Below are positions 1 to 46,503 of a stretch of DNA of 64,000 bases, piece by piece. The stretch is from Siphonodentalium dalli (lineage: Eukaryota > Mollusca > Scaphopoda > Gadilida > Siphonodentaliidae). Below the pieces are notes generated by a model, which was not told where the DNA came from, made no database searches, and saw nothing but the letters and a program-made list of their open reading frames with translations. The position numbers and the translations under genes are program-made. How positions within the stretch are numbered: the stretch's first letter is position 1; each line of letters starts with the position of its first letter. The stretch covers positions 17,363,739-17,427,738 of the forward strand of contig CP136062.1 of assembly GCA_032622095.1 (NCBI GenBank), in the 5' to 3' direction.

Positions 1-105
1 AGTACAGACTTACTTCAGCACACGAGCAGTCAGTCATTATTCACACCGTACTGACTACAGACTTACTTCAGCACACGAGCAGTCAGTCATTATTCACACT
101 GTACT

Positions 106-3100
106 GTGTACAGACTTACTTCAGCACACGAGCAGTCGGTCATTATTCACACCATACTGAGTACATACCTACTTCAGCACACGAGCAGTCAGTCATTATT
201 CACACTGTACTGCGTACAGACATACTTCAGCACACGAGCAGTCAGTCATTATTCACACTGTACTGCGTACAGACCTACTTCAGCACACGAGCAGTCAGTC
301 ATTATTCACACTGTACTAAGTACAGACGTACTTCAGCACACGAGCAGTCTGTCATTATTCACACCATACTGAGTACAGACTTACTTCAGCACACGAGCAG
401 TCGGTTATTATTCACACTGTACTGCGTACAGACTTACTTCAGCACACGAGCAGTCGGTCATTATTCACACCGTACTGAGTACAGACCTACTTCAGCACAC
501 GAGCAGTCGGTCATTATTCACACCATACTGAGTACAGACTTACTTCAGCACACGAGCAGTCAGTCATTATTCACACCATACTGAGTACAGACTTACTTCA
601 GCACACGAGCAGTCAGTCATTATTCACACCATACTGAGTACAGACTTACTTCAGCACACGAGCAGTCAGTCATTATTCACACCATACTGAGTACAGACTT
701 ACTTCAGCACACGAGCAGTCGGTCATTATTCACACCATACTGAGTACAGACTTACTTCAGCACACGAGCAGTCGGTCATTATTCACACTGTACTGAGTAC
801 AGACTTACATCAGCACACGAGCAGTCAGTCATTATTCACACCGTACTGAGTACAGACCTACTTCAGCACACGAGCAGTCGGTCATTATTCACACCGTACT
901 GAGTACAGACTTACTTCAGCACACGAGCAGTCAGTCATTATTCACACCGTACTGAGTACAGACTTACTTCAGCACACGAGCAGTCGGTCATTATTCACAC
1001 TGTACTGAGTACAGACTTACATCAGCACACGAGCAGTCAGTCATTATTCACACCGTACTGAGTACAGACCTACTTTAGCACACGAGCAGTCGGTCATTAT
1101 TCACACCGTACTGAGTACAGACTTACTTCAGCACACGAGCAGTCAGTCATTATTCACACCTTACTGAGTACAGACTTACTTCAGCACACGAGCAGTCGGT
1201 CATTATTCACACCGTACTGAGTACAGACCTACTTCAGCACACGAGCAGTCGGTCATTATTCACACCGTACTGAGTACAGACTTACTTCAGCACACGAGCA
1301 GTCAGTCATTATCCACACCATACTGCGTACAGACCTACTTCAGCACACGAGCAGTCAGTCATTATTTACACAGTACTGAGTACAGACTTACTTCAGCACA
1401 CGAGCAGTCAGTCATTATTCACACCATACTGAGTACAGACTTACTTCAGCACACGAGCAGTCAGTCATTATTCACACCATACTGAGTACAGACTTACTTC
1501 AGCACACGAGTAGTCGGTCATTATTTACACCGTACTGAGTACAGACTTACTTCAGCACACGAGCAGTCAGTCATTATTCACACCATACTGCGTACAGACC
1601 TACTTCAGCACACGAGCAGTCGGTCATTATTTACACCGTACTGAGTACAGACTTACTTCAGCACACGAGCAGTCAGTCATTATTCACACCATACTGCGTA
1701 CAGACCTACTTCAGCACACGAGCAGTCGGTCATTATTCACACCATACTGCGTACAGACCTACTTCAGCACACGAGCAGTCGGTCATTATTTACACCGTAC
1801 TGAGTACAGACTTACTTCAGCACACGAGCAGTCAGTCATTATTCACACCATACTGCGTACAGACCTACTTCAGCACACGAGCAGTCAGTCATTATTCACA
1901 CCATACTGCGTACAGACCTACTTCAGCACACGAGCAGTCGGTCATTATTTACACCGTACTGAGTACAGACTTACTTCAGCACACGAGCAGTCAGTCATTA
2001 TTCACACCATACTGCGTACAGACCTACTTCAGCACACGAGCAGTCGGTCATTATTTACACCGTACTGAGTACAGACTTACTTCAGCACACGAGCAGTCAG
2101 TCATTATTCACACCATACTGAGTACAGACTTACTTCAGCACACGAGCAGTCAGTCATTATTCACACCATACTGAGTACAGACTTACTTCAGCACACGAGC
2201 AGTCGGTCATTATTCACACTGTACTGCGTACAGACTTACTTCAGCACACGAGCAGTCGGTCATTATTCACACCATACTGAGCACAGACTTACTTCAGCAC
2301 ACGAGCAGTCAGTCATTATTCACACCATACTGAGTACAGACTTACTTCAGCACACGAGCAGTCGGTCATTATTCACACCGTACTGAGTACAGACTTACTT
2401 CAGCACACGAGCAGTCGGTCATTATTCACACCATACTGAGTACAGACTTACTTCAGCACACGAGCAGTCGGTCATTATTCACACCATACTGAGTACAGAC
2501 TTACTTCAGCACACGAGCAGTCGGTCATTATTCACACCGTACTGAGTACAGACCTACTTCAGCACACGAGCAGACGGTCATTATTCACACCATACTGAGT
2601 ACAGACTTACTTCAGCACACGAGTAGTCAGTCATTATTCACACCATACTGAGTACAGACTTACTTCAGCACACGAGCAGTCGGTCATTATTCACACCATA
2701 CTGAGTACAGACTTACTTCAGCACACGAGCAGTCGGTCATTATTCACACCATACTGAGTACAGAATTACTTCAGCACACGAGCAGTCAGTCATTATTCAC
2801 ACCATACTGAGTACATACTTACTTCAGCACACGAGCAGTCAGTCATTATTCACACTGTACTGCGTACAGACTTACTTCAGCACACGAGCAGTCAGTCATT
2901 ATTCACACCATACTGAGTACAGACTTACTTCAGCACACGAGCAGTCGGTCATTATTCACACCATACTGAGTACAGACTTACTTCAGCACACGAGCAGTCG
3001 GTCATTATTCACACCGTACTGAGTACAGACCTACTTCAGCACACGAGTAGTCGGTCATTATTCATACCATACTGAGTACAGACTTACTTCAGCACACGAG

Positions 3101-6100
3101 CAGTCGGTCATTATTCACACCATACTGAGTACAGACTTATTTCAGCACACGAGCAGTCAGTCATTATTCACACCATACTGAGTACAGACTTACTTTAGCA
3201 CACGAGCAGTCGGTCATTATTCACACCATACTGAGTACAGACTTACTTCAGCACACGAGCAGTCAGTCATTATTCACACCATACTGAGTACAGACTTACT
3301 TCAGCACACGAGCAGTCGGTCATTATTCACACCATACTGAGTACAGACTTACTTCAGCACACGAGCAGTCAGTCATTATTCACACTGTACTGCGTACAGA
3401 CTTACTTCAGCACACGAGCAGTCGGTTATTATTCACACCATACTGAGTACAGACTTACTTCAGCACACGAGCAGTCAGTTATTATTCACACCGTACTGAG
3501 TACAGACTTACTTCAGCACACGAGCAGTCGGTCATTATTCACACCGTACTGAGTACAGACCTACTTCAGCACACGAGCAGTCGGTCATTATTCACACCTT
3601 ACTGCGTACAGACTTACTTCAGCACACGAGCAGTCGGTCATTATTCACACCATACTGAGTACAGACTTACTTCAGCACACGAGCAGTCAGTCATTATTCA
3701 CACTGTACTGAGTACAGACCTACTTCAGCACACGAGCAGTCAGTCATTATTCACACCATACTGCGTACAGACCTACTTCAGCACACGAGCAGTCAGTCAT
3801 TATTCACACTGTACTGAGTACAGACCTACTTCAGCACACGAGCAGTCGGTCATTATTCACACCATACTGTGTACAGACTTACTTCAGCACACGAGCAGTC
3901 AGTCATTATTCACACTGTACTGCGTACAGACCTACTTCAGCACACGAGCAGTCAGTCATTATTCACACCATACTGAGTACAGACTTACTTCAGCACACGA
4001 GCAGTCAGTCATTATTCACACTGTACTGCGTACAGACTTACTTCAGCACACGAGCAGTCAGTCATTATTCACACCATACTGAGTACAGACTTACTTCAGC
4101 ACACGAGCAGTCAGTCATTATTCACACTGTACTGCGTACAGTCTTACTTCAGCACACGAGCAGTCAGTCATTATTCACACTGTACTGAGTACAGACTTAC
4201 TTCAGCACACGAGCAGTCAGTCATTATTCACACCATACTGTGTACAGACTTACTTCAGCACACGAGCAGTCAGTCATTATTCACACTGTACTGCGTACAG
4301 ACCTACTTCAGCACACGAGCAGTCAGTCATTATTCACACTGTACTGAGTACAGACTTACTTCAGCACACGAGCAGTCAGTCATTATTCACACCGTACTGA
4401 GTACAGACTTCAGCACATGAGCAGTCAGTCATTATTCACACCGTACTGAGTACAGACTTACTTCAGCACACGAGCAGTCAGTCATTATTCACACCATACT
4501 GTGTACAGACTTACTTCAGCACACGAGCAGTCAGTCATTATTCACACTGTACTGCGTACAGACCTACTTCAGCACACGAGCAGTCAGTCATTATTCACAC
4601 TGTACTGAGTACAGACGTACTTCAGCACACGAGCAGTCGGTCATTATTCACACCATACTGAGTACAGACTTACTTCAGCACACGAGCAGTCGGTCATTAT
4701 TCACACCATACTGAGTACAGACGTACTTCAGCACACGAGCAGTCGGTCATTATTCACACCATACTGAGTACAGACTTACTTCAGCACACGAGCAGTCAGT
4801 CATTATTCACACCGTACTGACTACAGACTTACTTCAGCACACGAGCAGTCAGTCATTATTCACACTGTACTGTGTACAGACTTACTTCAGCACACGAGCA
4901 GTCGGTCATTATTCACACCATACTGAGTACATACCTACTTCAGCACACGAGCAGTCAGTCATTATTCACACTGTACTGCGTACAGACGTACTTCAGCACA
5001 CGAGCAGTCAGTCATTATTCACACTGTACTGCGTACAGACCTACTTCAGCACACGAGCAGTCAGTCATTATTCACACTGTACTAAGTACAGACGTACTTC
5101 AGCACACGAGCAGTCGGTCATTATTCACACCATACTGAGTACAGACTTACTTCAGCACACGAGCAGTCGGTTATTATTCACACTGTACTGCGTACAGACT
5201 TACTTCAGCACACGAGCAGTCGGTCATTATTCACACCGTACTGAGTACAGACCTACTTCAGCACACGAGCAGTCGGTCATTATTCACACCATACTGAGTA
5301 CAGACTTACTTCAGCACACGAGCAGTCAGTCATTATTCACACCATACTGAGTACAGACTTACTTCAGCACACGAGCAGTCAGTCATTATTCACACCATAC
5401 TGAGTACAGACTTACTTCAGCACACGAGCAGTCAGTCATTATTCACACCATACTGAGTACAGACTTACTTCAGCACACGAGCAGTCGGTCATTATTCACA
5501 CCATACTGAGTACAGACTTACTTCAGCACACGAGCAGTCGGTCATTATTCACACTGTACTGAGTACAGACTTACATCAGCACACGAGCAGTCAGTCATTA
5601 TTCACACCGTACTGAGTACAGACCTACTTCAGCACACGAGCAGTCGGTCATTATTCACACCGTACTGAGTACAGACTTACTTCAGCACACGAGCAGTCAG
5701 TCATTATTCACACCGTACTGAGTACAGACTTACTTCAGCACACGAGCAGTCGGTCATTATTCACACTGTACTGAGTACAGACTTACATCAGCACACGAGC
5801 AGTCAGTCATTATTCACACCGTACTGAGTACAGACCTACTTTAGCACACGAGCAGTCGGTCATTATTCACACCGTACTGAGTACAGACTTACTTCAGCAC
5901 ACGAGCAGTCAGTCATTATTCACACCTTACTGAGTACAGACTTACTTCAGCACACGAGCAGTCGGTCATTATTCACACCGTACTGAGTACAGACCTACTT
6001 CAGCACACGAGCAGTCAGTCATTATTCACACCGTACTGAGTACAGACGTACTTCAGCACACGAGCAGTCAGTCATTATTCACACCATACTGCGTACAGAC

Positions 6101-9100
6101 CTACTTCAGCACACGAGCAGTCGGTCATTATTTACACCGTACTGAGTACAGACTTACTTCAGCACACGAGCAGTCGGTCATTATTCACACCATACTGAGT
6201 ACAGACTTACTTCAGCACACGAGCAGTCAGTCATTATTCACACCATACTGAGTACAGACTTACTTCAGCACACGAGCAGTCGGTCATTATTTACACCGTA
6301 CTGAGTACAGACTTACTTCAGCACACGAGCAGTCAGTCATTATTCACACCATACTGCGTACAGACCTACTTCAGCACACGAGCAGTCGGTCATTATTTAC
6401 ACCGTACTGAGTACAGACTTACTTCAGCACACGAGCAGTCAGTCATTATTCACACCATACTGCGTACAGACCTACTTCAGCACACGAGCAGTCGGTCATT
6501 ATTCACACCATACTGCGTACAGACCTACTTCAGCACACGAGCAGTCGGTCATTATTTACACCGTACTGAGTACAGACTTACTTCAGCACACGAGCAGTCA
6601 GTCATTATTCACACCATACTGCGTACAGACCTACTTCAGCACACGAGCAGTCAGTCATTATTCACACCATACTGCGTACAGACCTACTTCAGCACACGAG
6701 CAGTCGGTCATTATTTACACCGTACTGAGTACAGACTTACTTCAGCACACGAGCAGTCAGTCATTATTCACACCATACTGCGTACAGACCTACTTCAGCA
6801 CACGAGCAGTCGGTCATTATTTACACCGTACTGAGTACAGACTTACTTCAGCACACGAGCAGTCAGTCATTATTCACACCATACTGAGTACAGACTTACT
6901 TCAGCACACGAGCAGTCAGTCATTATTCACACCATACTGAGTACAGACTTACTTCAGCACACGAGCAGTCGGTCATTATTCACACTGTACTGCGTACAGA
7001 CTTACTTCAGCACACGAGCAGTCGGTCATTATTCACACCATACTGAGCACAGACTTACTTCAGCACACGAGCAGTCAGTCATTATTCACACCATACTGAG
7101 TACAGACTTACTTCAGCACACGAGCAGTCGGTCATTATTCACACCGTACTGAGTACAGACTTACTTCAGCACACGAGCAGTCGGTCATTATTCACACCAT
7201 ACTGAGTACAGACTTACTTCAGCACACGAGCAGTCGGTCATTATTCACACCATACTGAGTACAGACTTACTTCAGCACACGAGCAGTCGGTCATTATTCA
7301 CACCGTACTGAGTACAGACCTACTTCAGCACACGAGCAGTCGGTCATTATTCACACCATACTGAGTACAGACTTACTTCAGCACACGAGCAGTCAGTCAT
7401 TATTCACACCATACTGAGTACAGACTTACTTCAGCACACGAGCAGTCGGTCATTATTCACACCATACTGAGTACAGACTTACTTCAGCACACGAGCAGTC
7501 GGTCATTATTCACACCATACTGAGTACAGAATTACTTCAGCACACGAGCAGTCAGTCATTATTCACACCATACTGAGTACAGACTTACTTCAGCACACGA
7601 GCAGTCAGTCATTATTCACACTGTACTGCGTACAGACTTACTTCAGCACACGAGCAGTCAGTCATTATTCACACTGTACTGAGTACAGACTTACTTCAGC
7701 ACACGAGCAGTCGGTCATTATTCACACCATACTGAGTACAGACTTACTTCAGCACACGAGCAGTCGGTCATTATTCACACCGTACTGACTACAGACCTAC
7801 TTCAGCACATGAGCAGTCGGTCATTATTCACACCATACTGAGTACAGACTTACTTCAGCACACGAGCAGTCGGTCATTATTCACACCATACTGAGTACAG
7901 ACTTACTTCAGCACACGAGCAGTCAGTCATTATTAACACCATACTGAGTACAGACTTACTTCAGCACACGAGCAGTCGGTCATTATTCACACCATACTGA
8001 GTACAGACTTACTTCAGCACACGAGCAGTCAGTCATTATTCACACCATACTGAGTACAGACTTACTTCAGCACACGAGCAGTCGGTCATTATTCACACCA
8101 TACTGAGTACAGACTTACTTCAGCACACGAGCAGTCAGTCATTATTCACACTGTACTGCGTACAGACTTACTTCAGCACACGAGCAGTCGGTTATTATTC
8201 ACACCATACTGAGTACAGACTTACTTCAGCACACGAGCAGTCAGTTATTATTCACACCGTACTGAGTACAGACTTACTTCAGCACACGAGCAGTCGGTCA
8301 TTATTCACACCGTACTGAGTACAGACCTACTTTAGCACACGAGCAGTCGGTCATTATTCACACCGTACTGCGTACAGACTTACTTCAGCACACGAGCAGT
8401 CGGTCATTATTCACACCATATTGAGTACAGACTTACTTCAGCACACGAGCAGTCGGTCATTATTCACACCGTACTGAGTACAGACCTACTTCAGCACACG
8501 AGCAGTCGGTCATTATTCACACCGTACTGCGTACAGACTTACTTCAGCACACGAGCAGTCGGTCATTATTCACACCATACTGAGTACAGACTTACTTCAG
8601 CACACGAGCAGTCAGTCATTATTCACACCGTACTGAGTACAGACCTACTTCAGCACACGAGCAGTCGGTCATTATTCATACTGTACTGAGTACAGACTTA
8701 CTTCAGCACACGAGCAGTCAGTCATTATTCACACCATACTGTGTACAGACTTACTTCAGCACACGAGCAGTCAGTCATTATTCACACTGTACTGCGTACA
8801 GACCTACTTCAGCACACGAGCAGTCAGTCATTATTCACACTGTACTGAGTACAGACGTACTTCAGCACACGAGCAGTCGGTCATTATTCACACCATACTG
8901 AGTACAGACTTACTTCAGCACACGAGCAGTCGGTCATTATTCACACCATACTGAGTACAGACGTACTTCAGCACACGAGCAGTCGGTCATTATTCACACC
9001 ATACTGAGTACAGACTTACTTCAGCACACGAGCAGTCAGTCATTATTCACACCGTACTGACTACAGACTTACTTCAGCACACGAGCAGTCAGTCATTATT

Positions 9101-12100
9101 CACACTGTACTGTGTACAGACTTACTTCAGCACACGAGCAGTCGGTCATTATTCACACCATACTGAGTACATACCTACTTCAGCACACGAGCAGTCAGTC
9201 ATTATTCACACTGTACTGCGTACAGACGTACTTCAGCACACGAGCAGTCAGTCATTATTCACACTGTACTGCGTACAGACCTACTTCAGCACACGAGCAG
9301 TCAGTCATTATTCACACTGTACTAAGTACAGACGTACTTCAGCACACGAGCAGTCGGTCATTATTCACACCATACTGAGTACAGACTTACTTCAGCACAC
9401 GAGCAGTCGGTTATTATTCACACTGTACTGCGTACAGACTTACTTCAGCACACGAGCAGTCGGTCATTATTCACACCATACTGAGTACAGACTTACTTCA
9501 GCACACGAGCAGTCGGTCATTATTCACACCATACTGAGTACAGAATTACTTCAGCACACGAGCAGTCAGTCATTATTCACACCATACTGAGTACAGACTT
9601 ACTTCAGCACACGAGCAGTCAGTCATTATTCACACTGTACTGCGTACAGACTTACTTCAGCACACGAGCAGTCAGTCATTATTCACACTGTACTGAGTAC
9701 AGACTTACTTCAGCACACGAGCAGTCGGTCATTATTCACACCATACTGAGTACAGACTTACTTCAGCACACGAGCAGTCGGTCATTATTCACACCGTACT
9801 GACTACAGACCTACTTCAGCACATGAGCAGTCGGTCATTATTCACACCATACTGAGTACAGACTTACTTCAGCACACGAGCAGTCGGTCATTATTCACAC
9901 CATACTGAGTACAGACTTACTTCAGCACACGAGCAGTCAGTCATTATTAACACCATACTGAGTACAGACTTACTTCAGCACACGAGCAGTCGGTCATTAT
10001 TCACACCATACTGAGTACAGACTTACTTCAGCACACGAGCAGTCAGTCATTATTCACACCATACTGAGTACAGACTTACTTCAGCACACGAGCAGTCGGT
10101 CATTATTCACACCATACTGAGTACAGACTTACTTCAGCACACGAGCAGTCAGTCATTATTCACACTGTACTGCGTACAGACTTACTTCAGCACACGAGCA
10201 GTCGGTTATTATTCACACCATACTGAGTACAGACTTACTTCAGCACACGAGCAGTCAGTTATTATTCACACCGTACTGAGTACAGACTTACTTCAGCACA
10301 CGAGCAGTCGGTCATTATTCACACCGTACTGAGTACAGACCTACTTTAGCACACGAGCAGTCGGTCATTATTCACACCGTACTGCGTACAGACTTACTTC
10401 AGCACACGAGCAGTCGGTCATTATTCACACCATATTGAGTACAGACTTACTTCAGCACACGAGCAGTCGGTCATTATTCACACCGTACTGAGTACAGACC
10501 TACTTCAGCACACGAGCAGTCGGTCATTATTCACACCGTACTGCGTACAGACTTACTTCAGCACACGAGCAGTCGGTCATTATTCACACCATACTGAGTA
10601 CAGACTTACTTCAGCACACGAGCAGTCAGTCATTATTCACACCGTACTGAGTACAGACCTACTTCAGCACACGAGCAGTCGGTCATTATTCACACTGTAC
10701 TGAGTACAGACTTACTTCAGCACACGAGCAGTCAGTCATTATTCACACCATACTGTGTACAGACTTACTTCAGCACACGAGCAGTCAGTCATTATTCACA
10801 CTGTACTGCGTACAGACCTACTTCAGCACACGAGCAGTCAGTCATTATTCACACTGTACTGAGTACAGACGTACTTCAGCACACGAGCAGTCGGTCATTA
10901 TTCACACCATACTGAGTACAGACTTACTTCAGCACACGAGCAGTCGGTCATTATTCACACCATACTGAGTACAGACGTACTTCAGCACACGAGCAGTCGG
11001 TCATTATTCACACCATACTGAGTACAGACTTACTTCAGCACACGAGCAGTCAGTCATTATTCACACCGTACTGACTACAGACTTACTTCAGCACACGAGC
11101 AGTCAGTCATTATTCACACTGTACTGTGTACAGACTTACTTCAGCACACGAGCAGTCGGTCATTATTCACACCATACTGAGTACATACCTACTTCAGCAC
11201 ACGAGCAGTCAGTCATTATTCACACTGTACTGCGTACAGACGTACTTCAGCACACGAGCAGTCAGTCATTATTCACACTGTACTGCGTACAGACCTACTT
11301 CAGCACACGAGCAGTCAGTCATTATTCACACTGTACTAAGTACAGACGTACTTCAGCACACGAGCAGTCGGTCATTATTCACACCATACTGAGTACAGAC
11401 TTACTTCAGCACACGAGCAGTCGGTTATTATTCACACTGTACTGCGTACAGACTTACTTCAGCACACGAGCAGTCGGTCATTATTCACACCGTACTGAGT
11501 ACAGACCTACTTCAGCACACGAGCAGTCGGTCATTATTCACACCATACTGAGTACAGACTTACTTCAGCACACGAGCAGTCAGTCATTATTCACACCATA
11601 CTGAGTACAGACTTACTTCAGCACACGAGCAGTCAGTCATTATTCACACCATACTGAGTACAGACTTACTTCAGCACACGAGCAGTCAGTCATTATTCAC
11701 ACCATACTGAGTACAGACTTACTTCAGCACACGAGCAGTCGGTCATTATTCACACCATACTGAGTACAGACTTACTTCAGCACACGAGCAGTCGGTCATT
11801 ATTCACACTGTACTGAGTACAGACTTACATCAGCACACGAGCAGTCAGTCATTATTCACACCGTACTGAGTACAGACCTACTTCAGCACACGAGCAGTCG
11901 GTCATTATTCACACCGTACTGAGTACAGACTTACTTCAGCACACGAGCAGTCAGTCATTATTCACACCGTACTGAGTACAGACTTACTTCAGCACACGAG
12001 CAGTCGGTCATTATTCACACTGTACTGAGTACAGACTTACATCAGCACACGAGCAGTCAGTCATTATTCACACCGTACTGAGTACAGACCTACTTTAGCA

Positions 12101-15100
12101 CACGAGCAGTCGGTCATTATTCACACCGTACTGAGTACAGACTTACTTCAGCACACGAGCAGTCAGTCATTATTCACACCTTACTGAGTACAGACTTACT
12201 TCAGCACACGAGCAGTCGGTCATTATTCACACCGTACTGAGTACAGACCTACTTCAGCACACGAGCAGTCAGTCATTATTCACACCGTACTGAGTACAGA
12301 CTTACTTCAGCACACGAGCAGTCAGTCATTATTCACACCATACTGCGTACAGACCTACTTCAGCACACGAGCAGTCGGTCATTATTTACACCGTACTGAG
12401 TACAGACTTACTTCAGCACACGAGCAGTCAGTCATTATTCACACCATACTGAGTACAGACTTACTTCAGCACACGAGCAGTCAGTCATTATTCACACCAT
12501 ACTGAGTACAGACTTACTTCAGCACACGAGCAGTCGGTCATTAATTACACCGTACTGAGTACAGACTTACTTCAGCACACGAGCAGTCAGTCATTATTCA
12601 CACCATACTGCGTACAGACCTACTTCAGCACACGAGCAGTCGGTCATTATTTACACCGTACTGAGTACAGACTTACTTCAGCACACGAGCAGTCAGTCAT
12701 TATTCACACCATACTGCGTACAGACCTACTTCAGCACACGAGCAGTCGGTCATTATTCACACCATACTGCGTACAGACCTACTTCAGCACACGAGCAGTC
12801 GGTCATTATTTACACCGTACTGAGTACAGACTTACTTCAGCACACGAGCAGTCAGTCATTATTCACACCATACTGCGTACAGACCTACTTCAGCACACGA
12901 GCAGTCAGTCAGTATTCACACCATACTGCGTACAGACCTACTTCAGCACACGAGCAGTCGGTCATTATTTACACCGTACTGAGTACAGACTTACTTCAGC
13001 ACACGAGCAGTCAGTCATTATTCACACCATACTGCGTACAGACCTACTTCAGCACACGAGCAGTCGGTCATTATTTACACCGTACTGAGTACAGACTTAC
13101 TTCAGCACACGAGCAGTCAGTCATTATTCACACCATACTGAGTACAGACTTACTTCAGCACACGAGCAGTCAGTCATTTTTCACACCATACTGAGTACAG
13201 ACTTACTTCAGCACACGAGCAGTCGGTCATTATTCACACTGTACTGCGTACAGACTTACTTCAGCACACGAGCAGTCGGTCATTATTCACACCATACTGA
13301 GTACAGACTTACTTCAGCACACGAGCAGTCAGTCATTATTCACACCATACTGAGTACAGACTTACTTCAGCACACGAGCAGTCGGTCATTATTCACACCG
13401 TACTGAGTACAGACTTACTTCAGCACACGAGCAGTCGGTCATTATTCACACCATACTGAGTACAGACTTACTTCAGCACACGAGCAGTCGGTCATTATTC
13501 ACACCATACTGAGTACAGACTTACTTCAGCACACGAGCAGTCGGTCATTATTCACACCGTACCGAGTACAGACCTACTTCAGCACACGAGCAGTCGGTCA
13601 TTATTCACACCATACTGAGTACAGACTTACTTCAGCACACGAGCAGTCAGTCATTATTCACACCATACTGAGTACAGACTTACTTCAGCACACGAGCAGT
13701 CGGTCATTATTCACACCATACCGAGTACAGACTTACTTCAGCACACGAGCAGTCGGTCATTATTCACACCATACTGAGTACAGAATTACTTCAGCACACG
13801 AGCAGTCAGTCATTATTCACACCATACTGAGTACAGACTTACTTCAGCACACGAGCAGTCAGTCATTATTCACACTGTACTGCGTACAGACTTACTTCAG
13901 CACACGAGCAGTCAGTCATTATTCACACTGTACTGCGTACAGACTTACTTCAGCACACGAGCAGTCGGTCATTATTCACACCATACTGAGTACAGACTTA
14001 CTTCAGCACACGAGCAGTCGGTCATTATTCACACCGTACTGACTACAGACCTACTTCAGCACACGAGCAGTCGGTCATTATTCACACCATACTGAGTACA
14101 GACTTACTTCAGCACACGAGCAGTCGGTCATTATTCACACCATACTGAGTACAGACTTACTTCAGCACACGAGCAGTCAGTCATTATTCACACCATACTG
14201 AGTACAGACTTACTTCAGCACACGAGCAGTCGGTCATTATTCACACCATACTGAGTACAGACTTACTTCAGCACACGAGCAGTCAGTCATTATTCACACC
14301 GTACTGCGTACAGATTTACTTCAGCACACGAGCAGTCGGTTATTATTCACACCATACTGAGTACAGACTTACTTCAGCACACGAGCAGTCGGTCATTATT
14401 CACACCGTACTGACTACAGACCTACTTCAGCACACGAGCAGTCGGTCATTATTCACACCATACTGAGTACAGACTTACTTCAGCACACGAGCAGTCGGTC
14501 ATTATTCACACCGTACTGAGTACAGACCTACTTCAGCACACGAGCAGTCGGTCATTATTCACACCGTACTGAGTACAGACTTACTTCAGCACACGAGCAG
14601 TCGGTTATTATTCACACCATACTGAGTACAGACTTACTTCAGCACACGAGCAGTCGGTTATTATTCACACCATACTGAGTACAGACTTACTTCAGCACAC
14701 TAGCAGTCAGTCATTATTCACACCATACTGAGTACAGACTTACTTCAGCACACGAGCAGTCAGTCATTATTCACACCATACTGAGTACAGACTTACTTCA
14801 GCACACGAGCAGTCGGTCATTATTCACACTGTACTGAGTACAGACTTACATCAGCACACGAGCAGTCAGTCATTATTCACACCATACTGAGTACAGACTT
14901 ACTTCAGCACACGAGCAGTCAGTCATTTTTCACACCATACTGAGTACAGACTTACTTCAGCACACGAGCAGTCGGTCATTATTCACACTGTACTGCGTAC
15001 AGACTTACTTCAGCACACGAGCAGTCGGTCATTATTCACACCATACTGAGCACAGACTTACTTCAGCACACGAGCAGTCAGTCATTATTCACACCATACT

Positions 15101-32475: not shown

Positions 32476-35400
32476 TACATACCTACTTCAGCACACGAGC
32501 AGTCAGTCATTATTCACACTGTACTGCGTACAGACGTACTTCAGCACACGAGCAGTCAGTCATTATTCACACTGTACTGCGTACAGACCTACTTCAGCAC
32601 ACGAGCAGTCAGTCATTATTCACACTGTACTGAGTACAGACGTACTTCAGCACACGAGCAGTCGGTCATTATTCACACCATACTGAGTACAGACTTACTT
32701 CAGCACACGAGCAGTCAGTCATTATTCACACCATACTGAGTACAGACGTACTTCAGTACACGAGCAGTCGGTCATTATTCACACCATACTGAGTACAGAC
32801 TTACTTCAGCACACGAGCAGTCAGTCATTATTCACACCGTACTGAGTACAGACTTACTCCAGCACACGAGCAGTCAGTCATTATTCACACTGTACTGTGT
32901 ACAGACTTACTTCAGCACACGAGCAGTCGGTCATTATTCACACCATACGGAGTACATACCTACTTCAGCACACGAGCAGTCAGTCATTATTCACACTGTA
33001 CTGCGTACAGACGTACTTCAGCACACGAGCAGTCAGTCATTATTCACACTGTACTGCGTACAGACTTACTTCAGCACACGAGCAGTCGGTCATTATTCAC
33101 ACCATACTGAGTACAGACTTACTTCAGCACACGAGCAGTCAGTCATTATTCACACCATACTGAGTACAGACTTACTTCAGCACACGAGCAGTCAGTCATT
33201 ATTCACACTGTACTGCGTACAGACTTACTTCAGCACACGAGCAGTCAGTCATTATTCACACTGTACTGAGTACAGACTTACATCAGCACACGAGCAGTCA
33301 GTCATTATTCACACCATACTGCGTACAGACCTACTTCAGCACACGAGCAGTCAGTCATTATTCACACTGTACTGAGTACAGACTTACTTCAGCACACGAG
33401 CAGTCAGTCATTATTCACACCATACTGAGTACAGACTTACTTCAGCACACGAGCAGTCAGTCATTATTCACACTGTACTGCGTTCAGACCTACTTCAGCA
33501 CACGAGCAGTCAGTCATTATTCACACTGTACTGAGTACAGACTTACTTCAGCACACGGGCAGTCGGTCATTATTCACACTGTACTGAGTACAGACTTACT
33601 TCAGCACACGAGCAGTCAGTCATTATTCACACCTTACTGCGTACAGACCTACTTCAGCACACGAGCAGTCAGTCATTATTCACACTGTACTGAGTACAGA
33701 CCTACTTCAGCACACGAGCAGTCGGTCATTATTCACACCGTACTGCGTACAGACTTACTTCAGCACACGAGCAGTCGGTCATTATTCACACTGTACTGCG
33801 TACAGACTTACTTCAGCACACGAGCAGTCAGTCATTATTCACACCATACTGAGTACAGACCTACTTCAGCACACGAGCAGTCGGTCATTATTCACACCGT
33901 ACTGAGTACAGACCTACTTCAGCACACGAGCAGTCAGTCATTATTCACACCATACTGCGTACAGACCTACTTCAGCACACGAGCAGTCGGTCATTATTCA
34001 CACCGTACTGAGTACAGACCTACTTCAGCACACGAGCAGTCAGTCATTATTCACACCGTACTGAGTACAGACTTACTTCAGCACACGAGCAGTCGGTCAT
34101 TATTCACACCATACTGAGTACAGACTTACTTCAGCACACGAGCAGTCAGTCATTATTCACACCGTACTGAGTACAGACTTACTTCAGCACACGAGCAGTC
34201 AGTCATTATTCACACTGTACTGTGTACAGACTTACTTCAGCACACGAGCAGTCGGTCATTATTCACACCATACTGAGTACATACCTACTTCAGCACACGA
34301 GCAGTCAGTCATTATTCACACTGTACTGCGTACAGACTTACTTCAGCACACGAGCAGTCAGTCATTATTCACACCATACTGAGTACAGACCTACTTCAGC
34401 ACACGAGCAGTCGGTCATTATTCACACCGTACTGAGTACAGACTTACTTCAGCACACGAGCAGCCGGTCATTATTCACACTGTTCTGCGTACAGACTTAC
34501 TTCAGCACACGAGCAGTCAGTCATTATTCACACCATACTGAGTACAGACCTACTTCAGCACACGAGCAGTCGGTCATTATTCACACCGTACTGAGTACAG
34601 ACTTACTTCAGCACACGAGCAGTCAGTCATTATTCACACCATACTGAGTACAGACTTACTTCAGCACACGAGCAGTCAGTCATTATTCACACTGTACTGC
34701 GTACAGACTTACTTCAGCACACGAGCAGTCAGTCATTATTCACACTGTACTGAGTACAGACTTACTTCAGCACACGAGCAGTCAGTCATTATTCACACCA
34801 TACTGTGTACAGACTTACTTCAGCACACGAGCAGTCAGTCATTATTCACACTGTACTGCGTACAGACCTACTTCAGCACACGAGCAGTCAGTCATTATTC
34901 ACACTGTACTGAGTACAGACATACTTCAGCACACGAGCAGTCAGTCATTATTCACACCGTACTGAGTACAGACTTACTTCAGCACACGAGCAGTCGGTCA
35001 TTATTCACACCGTACTGAGTACAGACTTACTTCAGCACACGAGCAGTCAGTCATTATTCACACCATACTGTGTACAGACTTACTTCAGCACACGAGCAGT
35101 CAGTCATTATTCACACTGTACTGCGTACAGACGTACTTCAGCACACGAGCAGTCGGTCATTATTCACACCATACTGAGTACAGACTTACTTCAGCACACG
35201 AGCAGTCGGTCATTATTCACACCATACTGAGTACAGACGTACTTCAGCACACGAGCAGTCGGTCATTATTCACACCATACTGAGTACAGACTTACTTCAG
35301 CACACGAGCAGTCAGTCATTATTCACACCGTACTGAGTACAGACTTACTTCAGCACACGAGCAGTCAGTCATTATTCACACTGTACTGTGTACAGACTTA

Positions 35401-38400
35401 CTTCAGCACACGAGCAGTCGGTCATTAATCACACCATACTGAGTACATACCTACTTCAGCACACGAGCAGTCAGTCATTATTCACACTGTACTGCGTACA
35501 GACGTACTTCAGCACACGAGCAGTCAGTCATTATTCACACTGTACTGCGTACAGACCTACTTCAGCACACGAGCAGTCAGTCATTATTCACACTGTACTG
35601 AGTACAGACGTACTTCAGCACACGAGCAGTCGGTCATTATTCACACCATACTGAGTACAGACTTACTTCAGCACACGAGCAGTCAGTCATTATTCACACC
35701 ATACTGAGTACAGACGTACTTCAGCACACGAGCAGTCGGTCATTATTCACACCATACTGAGTACAGACTTACTTCAGCACACGAGCAGTCAGTCATTATT
35801 CACACCGTACTGAGTACAGACTTACTCCAGCACACGAGCAGTCAGTCATTATTCACACTGTACTGTGTACAGACTTACTTCAGCACACGAGCAGTCGGTC
35901 ATTATTCACACCATACTGAGTACATACCTACTTCAGCACACGAGCAGTCAGTCATTATTCACACTGTACTGCGTACAGACGTACTTCAGCACACGAGCAG
36001 TCAGTCATTATTCACACCATACTGAGTACAGACTTACTTCAGCACACGAGCAGTCAGTCATTATTCACACCATACTGAGTACAGACTTACTTCAGCACAC
36101 GAGCAGTCAGTCATTATTCACACTGTACTGCGTACAGACTTACTTCAGCACACGAGCAGTCAGTCATTATTCACACTGTACTGAGTACAGACTTACATCA
36201 GCACACGAGCAGTCAGTCATTATTCACACCATACTGCGTACAGACCTACTTCAGCACACGAGCAGTCAGTCATTATTCACACTGTACTGAGTACAGACTT
36301 ACTTCAGCACACGAGCAGTCAGTCATTATTCACACCATACTGAGTACAGACTTACTTCAGCACACGAGCAGTCAGTCATTATTCACACTGTACTGCGTAC
36401 AGACTTACTTCAGCACACGAGCAGTCAGTCATTATTCACACTGTACTGAGTACAGACTTACTTCAGCACACGAGCAGTCAGTCATTATTCACACCATACT
36501 GTGTACAGACTTACTTCAGCACACGAGCAGTCAGTCATTATTCACACTGTACTGCGTTCAGACCTACTTCAGCACACGAGCAGTCAGTCATTATTCACAC
36601 TGTACTGAGTACAGACTTACTTCAGCACACGAGCAGTCAGTCATTATTCACACCATACTGAGTACAGACTTCAGCACACGAGCAGTCAGTCATTATTCAC
36701 ACTGTACTGCGTACAGACTTACTTCAGCACACGAGCAGTCAGTCATTATTCACACCATACTGAGTACAGACTTACTTCAGCACACGAGCAGTCAGTCATT
36801 ATTCACACTGTACTGCGTACAGACTTACTTCAGCACACGAGCAGTCAGTCATTATTCACACTGTACTGAGTACAGACTTACTTCAGCACACGAGCAGTCA
36901 GTCATTATTCACACCATACTGTGTACAGACTTACTTCAGCACACGAGCAGTCAGTCATTATTCACACTGTACTGCGTACAGACCTACTTCAGCACACGAG
37001 CAGTCAGTCATTATTCACACTGTACTGAGTACAGACTTACTTCAGCACACGAGCAGTCAGTCATTATTCACACCGTACTGAGTACAGACTTACTTCAGCA
37101 CACGAGCAGTCGGTCATTATTCACACCGTACTGAGTACAGACTTACTTCAGCACACGAGCAGTCAGTCATTATTCACACCATACTGTGTACAGACTTACT
37201 TCAGCACACGAGCAGTCAGTCATTATTCACACTGTACTGCGTACAGACGTACTTCAGCACAAGAGCAGTCGGTCATTATTCACACCATACTGAGTACAGA
37301 CTTACTTCAGCACACGAGCAGTCGGTCATTATTCACACCATACTGAGTACAGACGTACTTCAGCACACGAGCAGTCGGTCATTATTCACACCATACTGAG
37401 TACAGACTTACTTCAGCACACGAGCAGTCAGTCATTATTCACACCGTACTGAGTACAGACTTACTTCAGCACACGAGCAGTCAGTCATTATTCACACTGT
37501 ACTGTGTACAGACTTACTTCAGCACACGAGCAGTCGGTCATTATTCACACCATACTGAGTACATACCTACTTCAGCACACGAGCAGTCAGTCATTATTCA
37601 CACTGTACTGCGTACAGACGTACTTCAGCACACGAGCAGTCAGTCATTATTCACACTGTACTGCGTACAGACCTACTTCAGCACACGAGCAGTCAGTCAT
37701 TATTCACACTGTACTGAGTACAGACGTACTTCAGCACACGAGCAGTCGGTCATTATTCACACCATACTGAGTACAGACTTACTTCAGCACACGAGCAGTC
37801 AGTCATTATTCACACCATACTGAGTACAGACGTACTTCAGCACACGAGCAGTCGGTCATTATTCACACCATACTGAGTACAGACTTACTTCAGCACACGA
37901 GCAGTCAGTCATTATTCACACCGTACTGAGTACAGACTTACTCCAGCACACGAGCAGTCAGTCATTATTCACACTGTACTGTGTACAGACTTACTTCAGC
38001 ACACGAGCAGTCGGTCATTATTCACACCATACTGAGTACATACCTACTTCAGCACACGAGCAGTCAGTCATTATTCACACTGTACTGCGTACAGACGTAC
38101 TTCAGCACACGAGCAGTCAGTCATTATTCACACTGTACTGCGTACAGACTTACTTCAGCACACGAGCAGTCGGTCATTATTCACACCATACTGAGTACAG
38201 ACTTACTTCAGCACACGAGCAGTCAGTCATTATTCACACCATACTGAGTACAGACTTACTTCAGCACACGAGCAGTCAGTCATTATTCACACTGTACTGC
38301 GTACAGACTTACTTCAGCACACGAGCAGTCAGTCATTATTCACACTGTACTGAGTACAGACTTACATCAGCACACGAGCAGTCAGTCATTATTCACACCA

Positions 38401-40480
38401 TACTGCGTACAGACCTACTTCAGCACACGAGCAGTCAGTCATTATTCACACTGTACTGAGTACAGACTTACTTCAGCACACGAGCAGTCAGTCATTATTC
38501 ACACCATACTGAGTACAGACTTACTTCAGCACACGAGCAGTCAGTCATTATTCACACTGTACTGCGTACAGACTTACTTCAGCACACGAGCAGTCAGTCA
38601 TTATTCACACTGTACTGAGTACAGACTTACTTCAGCACACGAGCAGTCAGTCATTATTCACACCATACTGTGTACAGACTTACTTCAGCACACGAGCAGT
38701 CAGTCATTATTCACACTGTACTGCGTTCAGACCTACTTCAGCACACGAGCAGTCAGTCATTATTCACACTGTACTGAGTACAGACTTACTTCAGCACACG
38801 GGCAGTCGGTCATTATTCACACTGTACTGAGTACAGACTTACTTCAGCACACGAGCAGTCAGTCATTATTCACACCTTACTGCGTACAGACCTACTTCAG
38901 CACACGAGCAGTCAGTCATTATTCACACTGTACTGAGTACAGACCTACTTCAGCACACGAGCAGTCGGTCATTATTCACACCGTACTGCGTACAGACTTA
39001 CTTCAGCACACGAGCAGTCGGTCATTATTCACACTGTACTGCGTACAGACTTACTTCAGCACACGAGCAGTCAGTCATTATTCACACCATACTGAGTACA
39101 GACCTACTTCAGCACACGAGCAGTCGGTCATTATTCACACCGTACTGAGTACAGACCTACTTCAGCACACGAGCAGTCAGTCATTATTCACACCATACTG
39201 CGTACAGACCTACTTCAGCACACGAGCAGTCGGTCATTATTCACACCGTACTGAGTACAGACCTACTTCAGCACACGAGCAGTCAGTCATTATTCACACC
39301 GTACTGAGTACAGACTTACTTCAGCACACGAGCAGTCGGTCATTATTCACACCATACTGAGTACAGACTTACTTCAGCACACGAGCAGTCAGTCATTATT
39401 CACACCGTACTGAGTACAGACTTACTTCAGCACACGAGCAGTCAGTCATTATTCACACTGTACTGTGTACAGACTTACTTCAGCACACGAGCAGTCGGTC
39501 ATTATTCACACCATACTGAGTACATACCTACTTCAGCACACGAGCAGTCAGTCATTATTCACACTGTACTGCGTACAGACTTACTTCAGCACACGAGCAG
39601 TCAGTCATTATTCACACCATACTGAGTACAGACCTACTTCAGCAAACGAGCAGTCGGTCATTATTCACACCGTACTGAGTACAGACTTACTTCAGCACAC
39701 GAGCAGCCGGTCATTATTCACACTGTACTGCGTACAGACTTACTTCAGCACACGAGCAGTCAGTCATTATTCACACCATACTGAGTACAGACCTACTTCA
39801 GCACACGAGCAGTCGGTCATTATTCACACCGTACTGAGTACAGACTTACTTCAGCACACGAGCAGTCAGTCATTATTCACACTGTACTGCATACAGACTT
39901 ACTTCAGCACACGAGCAGTCAGTCATTATTCACACTGTACTGCGTACAGACCTACTTCAGCACACGAGCAGTCAGTCATTATTCACACTGTACTGAGTAC
40001 AGACTTACTTCAGCACACGAGCAGTCGGTCATTATTCACACCATACTGAGTACAGACTTACTTCAGCACACGAGCAGTCAGTCATTATTCACACTGTACT
40101 GCGTACAGACCTACTTCAGCACACGAGCAGTCAGTCATTATTCACACCATACTGAGTACAGACTTACTTCAGCACACGAGCAGTCGGTCATTATTCACAC
40201 CGTACTGCGTACAGACCTACTTCAGCACACGAGCAGTCGGTCATTATTCACACCATACTGAGTACAGACTTACTTCAGCACACGAGCAGTCAGTCATTAT
40301 TCACACTGTACTGCGTACAGACTTACTTCAGCACACGAGCAGTCGGTCATTATTCACACCATACTGAGTACAGACTTACTTCAGCACACAAGCAGTCGGT
40401 CATTATTCACACCGTACTGCGTACCGACCTACTTCAGCACACGAGCAGTCGGTCATTATTCACACCATACTGAGTACATA
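32420..40480. repeat. Higher-order repeat domain B (short, paired markers)
   Basis: Diagnostic GTACATACCT units here are at 32475, 32952, 34277, 35443, 35920, 37559, 38036, 39520 and 40474. Three pairs are separated by exactly 477 bp (9 units): 32475/32952, 35443/35920 and 37559/38036. Further private variants recur with them: CACACGGGCAGTCGG near 33555 and 38798, GCGTTCAGACC near 33481, 36556 and 38724, and TTACTCCAGCAC in each paired block. The domain is therefore built from 2-3 kb blocks, distinct from the longer blocks to its left, with a different mix of unit variants. Confidence 0.85.
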
Positions 40481-43400
40481 CCTACTTCAGCACACGAGCA
40501 GTCAGTCATTATTCACACTGTACTGCGTACAGACTTACTTCAGCACACGAGCAGTCAGTCATTATTCACACCATACTGAGTACAGACCTACTTCAGCACA
40601 CGAGCAGTCGGTCATTATTCACACCGTACTGAGTACAGACTTACTTCAGCACACGAGCAGTCGGTCATTATTCACACTGTACTGCGTACAGACTTACTTC
40701 AGCACACGAGCAGTCAGTCATTATTCACACCATACTGAGTACAGACCTACTTCCGCACACGAGCAGTCTGTCATTATTCACACCGTACTGAGTACAGACT
40801 TACTTCAGCACACGAGCAGTCAGTCATTATTCACACTGTACTGCGTACAGACTTACTTCAGCACACGAGCAGTCAGTCATTATTCACACTGTACTGCGTA
40901 CAGACCTACTTCAGCACACGAGCAGTCAGTCATTATTCACACTGTACTGAGTACAGACTTACTTCAGCACACGAGCAGTCGGTCATTATTCACACCATAC
41001 TGAGTACAGACTTACTTCAGCACACGAGCAGTCGGTCATTATTCACACTGTACTGCGTACAGACCTACTTCAGCACACGAGCAGTCGGTCATTATTCACA
41101 CCATACTGAGTACAGACTTACTTCAGCACACGAGCAGTCGGTCATTATTCACACCGTACTGCGTACAGACCTACTTCAGCACACGAGCAGTCGGTCATTA
41201 TTCACACCATACTGAGTACAGACTTACTTCAGCACACGAGCAGTCAGTCATTATTCACACTGTACTGCGTACAGACTTACTTCAGCACACGAGCAGTCGG
41301 TCATTATTCACACCATACTGAGTACAGACTTACTTCAGCACACAAGCAGTCGGTCATTATTCACACCGTACTGCGTACCGACCTACTTCAGCACAAGCAG
41401 TCGGTCATTATTCACACCATACTGAGTACAGACTTACTTCAGCACACGAGCAGTCAGTCATTATTCACACCGTACTGAGTACAGACCTACTTCAGCACAC
41501 GAGCAGTCGGTCATTATTCACACCATACTGAGTACAGACTTACTTCAGCACACAAGCAGTCAGTCATTATTCACACCGTACTGAGTACAGACTTACTTCA
41601 GCACACGAGCAGTCAGTCATTATTCACACCATACTGAGTACAGACTTACTTCAGCACACGAGCAGTCAGTCATTATTCACACCATACTGAGTACAGACTT
41701 ACTTCAGCACACGAGCAGTCAGTCATTATTCACACCGTACTGAGTACAGACCTACTTCAGCACACGAGCAGTCGGTCATTATTCACACCATACTGAGTAC
41801 AGACTTACTTCAGCACACGAGCAGTCAGTCATTATTCACACCATACTGAGTACAGACTTACTTCAGCACACGAGCAGTCAGTCATTATTCACACCATACT
41901 GAGTACAGACTTACTTCAGCACACGAGCAGTCAGTCATTATTCACACCGTACTGAGTACAGACTTTCTTCAGCACACGAGCAGTCAGTCATTATTCACAC
42001 CATACTGAGTACAGACTTACTTCAGCACACGAGCAGTCGGTCATTATTCACACTGTACTGAGTACAGACTTACTTCAGCACACGAGCAGTCGGTCATTAT
42101 TCACACCATACTGAGTACAGACTTACTTCAGCACACGAGCAGTCAGTCATTATTCACACCATACTGAGTACAGACTTACTTCAGCACACGAGCAGTCAGT
42201 CATTATTCACACTGTACTGCGTACAGACTTACTTCAGCACACGAGCAGTCGGTCATTATTCACACCATACTGAGTACAGACCTACTTCAGCACACGAGCA
42301 GTCGGTCATTATTCACACCGTACTGAGTACAGACCTACTTCAGCACACGAGCAGTCGGTCATTATTCACACTGTACTGAGTACAGACTTACTTCAGCACA
42401 CGAGCAGTCAGTCATTATTCACACTGTACTGAGTACAGACTTACTTCAGCACACGAGCAGTCAGTCATTATTCACACTGTACTGAGTACAGACTTACTTC
42501 AGCACACGAGCAGTCAGTCATTATTCACACCATACTGAGTACAGACTTACTTCAGCACACAAGCAGTCAGTCATTATTCACACCGTACTGAGTACAGACT
42601 TACTTCAGCACACAAGCAGTCAGTCATTATTCACACCATACTGAGTACAGACTTACTTCAGCACATGAGCAGTCAGTCATTATTCACACCATACTGAGTA
42701 CAGACTTACTTCAGCACACGAGCAGTTGGTCATTATTCACACTGTACTGCGTACAGACTTACTTCAGCACACGAGCAGTCAGTCATTATTCACACCATAC
42801 TGAGTACAGACTTACTTCAGCACACGCGCAGTCAGTCATTATTCACACCATACTGAGTACAGACTTACTTCAGCACACGAGCAGTCAGTCATTATTCACA
42901 CCGTACTGAGTACAGACTTACTTCAGCACACGAGCAGTCAGTCATTATTCACACCATACTGAGTACAGACTTACTTCAGCACACGAGCAGTCAGTCATTA
43001 TTCACACCATACTGAGTACAGACTTACTTCAGCACACGAGCAGTCAGTCATTATTCACACCATACTGAGTACAGACTTACTTCAGCACACGAGCAGTCGG
43101 TCATTATTCACACTGTACTGCGTACAGACTTACTTCAGCACACGAGCAGTCAGTCATTATTCACACCATACTGAGTACAGACTTACTTCAGCACACGAGC
43201 AGTCGGTCATTATTCACACTGTACTGCGTACAGACTTACTTCAGCACACGAGCAGTCGGTCATTATTCACACTGTACTGAGTACAGACTTACTTCAGCAC
43301 ACGAGCAGTCGGTCATTATTCACACTGTACTGCGTACAGACTTACTTCAGCACACGAGCAGTCAGTCATTATTCACACCGTACTGAGTACAGACTTACTT

Positions 43401-46150
43401 CAGCACACGAGCAGTCGGTCATTATTCACACTGTACTGCGTACAGACTTACTTCAGCACACGAGCAGTCAGTCATTATTCACACCATACTGAGTACAGAC
43501 TTACTTCAGCACACGAGCAGTCGGTCATTATTCACACTGTACTGAGTACAGACTTACTTCAGCACACGAGCAGTCGGTCATTATTCACACTGTACTGCGT
43601 ACAGACTTACTTCAGCACACGAGCAGTCAGTCATTATTCATACCGTACTGAGTACAGACTTACTTCAGCACACGAGCAGTCGGTCATTATTCACACCGTA
43701 CTGAGTACAGACTTACTTCAGCACACGAGCAGTCGGTCATTATTCACACCGTACTGCGTACAGACTTACTTCAGCACACGATTAGTCAGTCATTATTCAC
43801 ACTGTACTGAGTACAGACTTACTTCAGCACACGAGCAGTCGGTCATTATTCACACTGTACTGCGTACAGACTTACTTCAGCACACGAGCAGTCATTCATT
43901 ATTCACACCATACTGAGTACAGACTTACTTCAGCACACGAGCAGTCGGTCATTATTCACACCATACTGAGTACAGACTTACTTCAGCACATGAGCAGTCG
44001 GTCATTATTCACACTGTACTGAGTACAGACCTACTTCAGCACACGAGCAGTCAGTCACTATTCCCACCATACTGAGTACAGACCTACTTCAGCACATGAG
44101 CATTCAGTCATTATTCACACCGTACTGCGTACAGACTTACTTCAGCACACGAGCAGTCAGTCATTATTCACACTGTACTGAGTACAGACTTACTTCAGCA
44201 CACGAGCAGTCAGTCATTATTCACACCGTACTGCGTACAGACTTACTTCAGCACACGAGCAGTCGGTCATTATTCACACTGTACTGAGTACAGACTTACA
44301 TCAGCACACGAGCAGTCAGTCATTATTCACACTGTACTGCGTACAGACTTACTTCAGCACACGAGCAGTCGGTCATTATTCACACCGTACTGAGTACAGA
44401 CTTACTTCAGCACACGAGCAGTCGGTCATTATTCACACCATACTGAGTACAGACTTACTTCAGCACACGAGCAGTCAGTCATTATTCACACTGTACTGCG
44501 TACAGACTTACTTCAGCACACGAGCAGTCGGTCATTATTCACACCGTACTGAGTACAGACTTACTTCAGCACACGAGCAGTCGGTCATTATTCACACCGT
44601 ACTGAGTACAGACCTACTTCAGCACATGAGCAGTTGGTCATTATTCACACTGTACTGCGTACAGACTTACTTCAGCACACGAGCAGTCGGTCATTATTCA
44701 CACCATACTGAGTACAGACTTACTTCAGCACACGAGCAGTCAGTCATTATTCACACTGTACTGAGTACAGACTTACTTCAGCACACGAGCAGTCAGTCAT
44801 TATTCACACCGTACTGCGTACAGACTTACTTCAGCACACGAGCAGTCAGTCATTATTCACACCATACTGAGTACAGACTTACTTCAGCACACGAGCAGTC
44901 GGTCTTTATTCACACCATACTGAGTACAGACTTACTTCAGCACACGAGCAGTCGGTCATTATTCACACCATACTGAGTACAGACTTACTTCAGCACACGA
45001 GCAGTCGGTCATTATTCACACTGTACTGAGTACAGACTTACTTCAGCACACGAGCAGTCGGTCATTATTCTCACCATACTGAGTATAGAGTTACTTCAGC
45101 ACACGAGCAGTCGGTCATTATTCACACCATACTGAGTACAGACTTACTTCAGCACACGAGCAGTCGGTCATTATTCACACCATACTGAGTACAGAGTTAC
45201 TTCAGCACACGAGCAGTCGGTAATTATTCACACTGTACTGCTTACAGACTTACTTCAGCACACGAGCAGTCGGTCATTATTCACACTGTACTGAGTACAG
45301 ACTTACTTCAGCACACGAGCAGTCGGTCATTATTCACACTGTACTGAGTACAGACTTACTTCAGCACACGAGCAGTCGGTCATTATTCACACCATACTGA
45401 GTACAGACTTACTTCAGCACACGAGCAGTCGGTCATTATTCACACCGTACTGAGTACAGACTTACTTCAGCACACGAGCAGTCAGTCATTATTCACACTG
45501 TACTGCTTACAGACTTACTTCAGCACACGAGCAGTCGGTCATTATTCACACCATACTGAGTACAGACTTACTTCAGCACACGAGCAGTCAGTCATTATTC
45601 ACACCATACTGAGTACAGACTTACTTCAGCACACGAGCAGTCGGTCATTATTCACACCATACTGAGTACAGAGTTACTTCAGCACACGAGCAGTCGGTCA
45701 TTATTCACACTGTACTGAGTACAGACTTACTTCAGCACACGAGCAGTCGGTCATTATTCACACCATACTGAGTACAGAGTTACTTCAGCACACGAGCAGT
45801 CGGTCATTATTCACACCGTACTGCGTACAGACTTACTTCAGCACACGAGCAGTCGGTCATTATTCACACCGTACTGCGTACAGACTTACTTCAGCACACG
45901 AGCAGTCGGTCATTATTCACACCGTACTGAGTATAGACTTACTTCAGCACACGAGCAGTCGGTCATTATTCACACCGTACTGAGTATAGACTTACTTCAG
46001 CACACGAGCAGTCGGTCATTATTCACACCGTACTGAGTACAGACTTACTTCAGCACACGAGCAGTCGGTCATTATTCACACCATACTGAGTACAGACTTA
46101 CTTCAGCACACGAGCAGTCGGTCATTATTCACACTGTACTGCGTACAGAC
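40480..46150. repeat. Divergent right flank of the 53-bp satellite (domain C)
   Basis: No GTACATACCT marker unit occurs after 40474, and higher-order periodicity is not obvious. Private variants accumulate: CACAAGCAGTC (40388, 41341, 41552, 42560, 42613), a 2-bp-deleted unit near 41391, and near the end GAGTTACTTC (45087, 45192, 45670, 45777) and GTATAGACTT (45931, 45984). These edge-only variants fit the usual pattern in which the margin of a satellite array is less homogenised than its interior. Confidence 0.75.
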
Positions 46151-46214
46151 CTACTCACAATGGACTTAGTACAGGCCTATTTCAGCACACTGGCAGTCGG
46201 TAATTATTCACAAC
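46150..46214. repeat. Decayed terminal units of the 53-bp array
   Basis: After the last clean unit the sequence keeps recognisable fragments (TTAGTACAGGCCTATTTCAG, then CACACTGGCAGTCGGTAATT, then ATTCACAACTCAGAC) with many substitutions. It then passes into non-repetitive intron-like DNA. This marks the right boundary of the array, about 290 bp upstream of a splice acceptor. Confidence 0.85.
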
Positions 46215-46503
46215 TCAGACATTGGTGCATTGGAACCATTGTATCTCGGAAGTTTGAAACAGTGTATGATTATGTTTCTGGATTGTGAATGGTAACAGTC
46301 AGTTTTCAGATTTCTGTGATACAATGTATTCCCATTTTATTTTTTCACTGGAAAATTGCCATAACTTCATGGCCCATGCCGTCATGTCATTTAGCAGTGA
46401 ATCAAATAGGTTGAATTTAATTTTATTTGATATAATACACTTATTTTCAAAATTCCAACACTTGCATCAATATTCAGTTTGTTTGTTTTTTTGTTTGTTT
46501 CAG
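46215..46503 (+). other. Intron tail with polypyrimidine tract and splice acceptor
   Basis: This is AT-rich, non-repetitive sequence between the satellite edge and the first recognised exon. It ends in a T-rich run (from about 46478, repeated TTTGTTTG) followed by CAG at 46501-46503, a good 3' splice site. I see no exon in it. It should be the 3' end of an intron whose 5' end lies in or beyond the 53-bp satellite. Confidence 0.6.

Follow-up and report, generated by a model that had tools for sequence, protein, structure and literature searches.

The Drosophila Y fertility genes kl-3 and kl-5 contain giant introns filled with satellite DNA, which are transcribed together with their exons (PMC6508621). 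Transposable elements are a known source of satellites. Satellites grown from internal repeats of MITEs have been described for Xstir and miDNA4 in Xenopus and for Donax trunculus, and repeat expansion inside a MITE is one published model of satellite growth (reviewed in PMC12628747). In Drosophila virilis, an emerging satellite is built from units of the foldback transposon Tetris (PMC4079207).

The DNA analysed here, referred to as the window, is a stretch of 64,000 nucleotides from Siphonodentalium dalli (C2:17,363,739-17,427,738, forward strand; genome of 2.23 Gb in 9 contigs). As in kl-3 and kl-5, satellite makes up nearly all of a predicted intron of a protein-coding gene. The Drosophila introns lie on a heterochromatic Y and hold simple satellites in the megabase range, whereas the arrays described here cover 55-103 kb and consist of a locus-restricted 53-bp unit that is probably derived from a MITE. 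Unlike kl-3 and kl-5, the gene is an unrelated one with several paralogs, on contig C2 rather than on a known sex chromosome. Like Xstir, miDNA4 and the Donax repeats, the tandem repeats come from a MITE interior, and the element ends are still present. The locus differs from them in having one insertion with more than 1,000 monomers between its ends. This insertion is intronic, the array differs in length among the paralogs, and the forward-strand unit is private to the locus. The locus resembles Tetris in that a DNA transposon appears to be the source of the satellite unit; Tetris is a foldback element, whereas the present element is a short TTAA-ended MITE in an intronic location. Introns filled with satellite and satellites derived from MITEs are both known phenomena; the present case combines them and is unusually complete. 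The features are collected in Table 1.

Table 1. Features of the locus and its gene copies; positions are in the window unless C2 is given
Feature	Position	Strand	Basis
182-bp upstream exon (exon 1)	C2 17,353,381-17,353,562	+	A-versus-D island, conserved splice sites
53-bp satellite array, part in the window	1..46213	+	TRF and monomer scan
Last degenerate monomer and MITE 3' remainder	46156..46410	+	Dispersed-repeat match, 16-copy alignment
65-bp coding exon (exon 2)	46504..46568	+	Splices in frame to C2 17,353,381-17,353,562
Coding exon (exon 3): N-terminal region and first part of macrodomain 1	51446..52580	+	Translated search, Pfam
Coding exon: end of macrodomain 1 and start of macrodomain 2	57243..57971	+	Pfam
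Second intronic array, 71-bp unit	58273..64000, on past C2 17,480,300	+	TRF and samples
Gene copy A	window	+
Gene copy B	C2 17.897 Mb	-
Gene copy C	C2 17.622 Mb	-
Gene copy D	C2 14.434 Mb	-
Gene copy E	C2 18.046 Mb	-

A 53-bp array and the exons on either side

TRF reports a single 53-bp array at window positions 1-46155, with 871 copies, 94% matches and 0% indels. The initial annotation described a satellite of more than 46 kb ending 290 bp before an acceptor, and both points hold, since the last degenerate monomer reaches 46213, 290 bp short of the acceptor of the 46504 exon, and the window cuts an array that is longer still. The true left edge lies 8.6 kb outside the window, and the whole array (C2 17,355,121-17,409,951), referred to as array A, measures 54.8 kb with 1,034 similar monomers arranged head to tail without a gap. 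Monomer-to-consensus identity is 94-95% (mean 0.945), 890 of the 1,034 units lie exactly 53 bp apart, and no foreign insert is found across the 54.8 kb. There are no N bases in the window or in any of the surrounding pieces that were checked. Certain 10-unit blocks are repeated up to six times, which is a sign of internal duplication in array A.

The 29-mer GCACACGAGCAGTCNGTCATTATTCACAC, taken to count units, has 888 forward and 1,736 reverse exact matches in the genome. The same 29-mer reversed as a control has no match genome-wide, so chance is no issue for the 888 forward matches. All 888 forward-strand units fall in array A, and the 1,736 reverse-strand units, compared as a total, are about as many as would be expected from the arrays of gene copies C and B described below. 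The forward-strand unit occurs at this locus only.

The first exon to the right of the array was annotated as opening in mid-codon behind a good acceptor, with coding sequence to be expected upstream. The 65-bp exon has the borders TTTCAG/ATATTG...CCCAAT/GTAAGT and begins with two bases of a split codon; the exon and both its splice sites are conserved in four paralogs. Comparison of the sequence left of array A with the upstream sequence of copy D yields one coding island, a 182-bp exon that sits 1.6 kb left of the array and 10.2 kb before window base 1 and whose counterpart in D is at 14,451,229-14,451,410, so the upstream coding sequence anticipated in the initial annotation does exist. Its borders are TTTTCAG/CACATATAGG...TTAGCAG/GTATAA, and it translates as TYRMNLTDQIKLHLLATIPAATHSNAGDILQDMINSFTGKFPCSHFRHEHTIIFIFKNLA with one base, G, left over. 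This G joins the AT that opens the 46504 exon to give the codon GAT, and the phases fit (1/1). Exons 1 to 5 of copy A, joined in silico, read through 820 codons with 0 stops. A 300-bp conserved block left of the array (A 11004-11303 versus D, 83%) was considered as the missing exon and rejected as intron because of 1- and 2-bp indels and the lack of a shared frame. The remaining A-D islands, the 182-bp exon excepted, were likewise rejected as exons, being repeats or non-coding.

The coding exons of one gene thus flank the array in phase. The conserved upstream exon to the left and the agreement of its donor phase with the 46504 exon support the intronic position of the array by gene structure, as the initial annotation had proposed. 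The intron between exons 1 and 2 would then be 56,679 bp long and 97% satellite, and because the flanking exons are in phase, the entire array would be transcribed and then removed as an intron if the gene is expressed. An intergenic array, with the left exon not spliced to the 46504 exon and everything downstream being a 5'-truncated copy that uses a start site of its own, is unlikely. Such a copy would fit with copy E, which has a 46504-type exon while its upstream exon is absent anywhere in a genome search, and with the damage at the 3' end of copy A. Against it stand the phase match, the donor and acceptor conserved in A, C and D, and the open joined frame of 820 codons. In addition, there is no in-frame ATG for the 46504 exon between the array and the exon, where the nearest upstream stop in its frame is at 46428, so a start in this gap could not initiate in-frame translation upstream of the exon.

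The array itself offers little that resembles a splice site. Only 4 of its 3,114 GT sites match at least 6 of 9 donor consensus positions, and the pyrimidine fraction before its AG sites is 0.56-0.61 versus 0.83 at the real acceptor. By this crude consensus count, few donor-like sites and pyrimidine-poor AG tracts suggest that the spliceosome could ignore the array.

The MITE bracketing the array

A repeat that is scattered across many contigs, with 854 first-look candidates genome-wide, matches the 188 bp to the right of the array. Sixteen dispersed copies were taken with their flanks and aligned. These copies are short (271-353 bp) and non-coding, and their ends, TTAACCTCTTSGCTGCTAT and TTAGCAGTGAAGAGGTTAA, are mutually inverted, both with TTAA. 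Both TIRs are present in 10 of the 16 copies. TTAA is found at both ends in most copies and could belong to the element itself; by its ends, the MITE appears piggyBac-like. The 5' end has no match in 220 kb of control sequence.

The internal 53 bp of the MITE is the array monomer. At the left, the array in copies A and C starts with TTAACTCTTGGCTGTTATACGTCCGTACTGAG, which is the MITE 5' end, and the edge as a whole (TTAACTCTTGGCTGTTATACGTCCGTACTGAGTACAGAC) runs from the MITE 5' end straight into monomer 1. At the right edge of array A, a worn and partly kept remnant of the 3' TIR lies at ~46391 (TTAGCAGTGAATCAA). With the 5' end at the left edge and the 3' part at the right edge, the whole array lies within one MITE. 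It is very unlikely that an older 53-bp satellite entered the MITE by capture or insertion instead of growing from it, although capture of tandem repeats has been put forward for other MITEs (PMC12628747). Single 53-bp-like segments are the ordinary interior of array-free dispersed copies, in which at most one such stretch, never an array, is found upstream of the 188 bp, and the forward-strand satellite occurs nowhere else in the genome.

Another copy of the MITE (C2:160,630,372-160,632,153) has its own 77-bp internal tandem repeat, and the family may therefore be prone to internal repeat growth.

Gene copies, their domains and their arrays

A translated search that took the 51446 exon as query identifies five gene copies, all on C2; at the amino-acid level, copies B to E are 91-99% identical to A in this search. 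A genome search with exon 1 also finds it at ~17,736,689-870 (copy C) and 17,949,339-520 (copy B). In copy D both exons are present, and their splice sites and phase agree with those of A; copy E is nearly identical to D across 13.9 kb. By arithmetic from coordinates, the intron between exons 1 and 2 measures ~108.5 kb in C, ~46 kb in B and 14,560 bp in D.

The 53-bp array of copy C extends over 17,628,512-17,731,539 (~103 kb), with a further 1.2 kb past a 2.3-kb insert near the left edge; it was sampled at eight points, all of which were positive. In copy B the array is broken up: one piece measures 2.9 kb, and another starts at 17,933,457 and extends beyond 17,943,300. In copies D and E, the 53-bp array is absent from the 20 kb preceding the paired exon, a distance that in D spans the entire intron between exons 1 and 2. 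The arrays of A and C have common edges on both sides and different lengths, and B has the same right edge. The initial annotation considered the array a candidate for length polymorphism, and between paralogous introns length does vary, from 54.8 kb to ~103 kb, broken up or absent. The D intron carries other inserts, and a clean empty site is not seen there. A 27-bp array, different from the 53-bp array, lies in the same intron of D and E, and the D intron also holds an inverted element with RVT_1 and Phage_integrase (Pfam), i.e. a reverse transcriptase and a tyrosine recombinase, which is DIRS-like.

Several intron flanks of A and C are 97-99.5% identical, as might be expected if arrays and gene copies were wrongly joined haplotypes and the array length unreal. 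Such an assembly artefact is nevertheless improbable, considering that there are no gaps, that A and C share common edges yet have unequal lengths, that C has a 2.3-kb insert, and that dS between A and C in exon 3 is 0.14; even alleles would display length variation. In exon 3, A and C show no difference over the first 600 nt and then 55 differing sites, and the intron 5' of this exon is 97.7-99.5% identical between the two. The exon 3 pattern looks like a gene-conversion tract. The dN/dS of exon 3 is 0.19 for A-C and 0.47 for A-D; for exons 1 and 2 of A versus D it is ~0.8, from few sites, and evolution is fast.

The gene has two macrodomains (Pfam), which are closest in PDB to those of PARP14 and PARP9. 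In copy C, exon 5 finishes macrodomain 2 and adds a RING (E 4.8e-11), and exon 6 encodes a Deltex C-terminal domain (DTC, E 1.2e-43) whose nearest PDB entry is DTX3L (3pg6, E 6.8e-38). The initial annotation called the gene PARP14-like, an identity that is rejected here: no exon for the PARP catalytic domain (PF00644) is found near any of the five copies, and the 3' part, as seen in copy C, is RING-Deltex. A search for RRM_PARP14 (PF23222) returned zero matches genome-wide, and its control was equally silent. From its predicted domains, the gene is a macro-macro-RING-Deltex gene, DTX3L-like. Like DTX3L, copy C encodes a RING followed by a Deltex C-terminal domain; unlike DTX3L, PARP9 and PARP14, the gene has two macrodomains and RING-Deltex on one predicted chain and no PARP catalytic domain nearby.

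Copy A differs from DTX3L in lacking the RING, and the RING-then-DTC order of a Deltex/DTX3L-type E3 ligase, present in copy C, is not found in it. Its exon 5 (positions 1546-1897 of piece L106) is missing 171 bp, exactly 57 codons in frame, so that the whole RING is gone. A genome-wide search for the Deltex exon gives matches at C, B, D and E and at 14.376 Mb, and none on the plus strand after A, whose surroundings were read as far as C2 17,488,081. With the RING lost and no Deltex exon near it, copy A may be decaying and is perhaps unexpressed.

Copy A carries further arrays. The 71-bp array, which spans over 58 kb by samples, fills the intron splitting macrodomain 2, and the next exon, exon 5, starts at C2 17,486,372; at the same place in copies C and D there are two copies of the unit only. 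A tandem repeat of 98 bp follows exon 5, and its unit takes in the 3' end of this exon together with the donor site. Copy A has at least 15 such units, copy C has 6 and copy D has 3. In A this array occupies positions 1886-3255 of piece L106, from ~17,486,712 on C2, and contains at least 15 copies of the donor. Shorter minisatellites with units of 22, 35 and 32 bp occupy other introns in the window (52964-53273, 53409-53961 and 55437-55791, respectively). Copy A might be a hot spot in which the unrelated 53-bp, 71-bp and 98-bp repeats, in three successive array-bearing introns, expanded jointly through a locus-wide instability that lengthens few-unit seeds and silences or remodels a recently duplicated copy of innate-immunity type, although we regard this as doubtful.

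Probable growth of the array and its meaning

The history that very probably explains the locus is one of MITE insertion, growth in place, copying of the gene segment and independent change of length, with the array as a passive intronic passenger. A TTAA-ended MITE of ~330 bp would have entered an intron of an ancestral macro-macro-RING-Deltex gene. Its internal 53 bp would then have been amplified at the site, through slippage or unequal exchange, as the block duplications and length differences suggest, with the satellite staying between the element ends. The gene segment would next have been copied, partly inverted, over ~0.6 Mb of the chromosome. Both edges are common to A and C, and the right edge also to B, so that the MITE insertion and an array of some size probably predate the split of A, B and C. 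After copying, the arrays would have changed length independently, to 54.8 kb in A and ~103 kb in C, and would have broken up in B.

Most likely, the array is carried passively and is tolerated because it contains almost no strong splice sites. A regulatory role, in which array length delays or gates expression of the gene copies via transcription time or chromatin, has been argued for the giant satellite introns of Drosophila Y genes (PMC6508621), and several introns of copy A hold tandem arrays. For the present locus this role is highly improbable, given that lengths vary widely among copies with no sign of constraint and that copy A looks degraded.

As a rule, the origin of a satellite has to be traced from old families that are already dispersed. 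At the present locus, several array lengths share one intron position in sister genes, and the array is still bracketed by the source element. How fast and in which direction a satellite grows inside a gene, and what this costs in expression, would therefore be directly measurable, with the short-intron paralogs serving as controls, and the birth and growth of a satellite within a gene could be read directly from sister genes.
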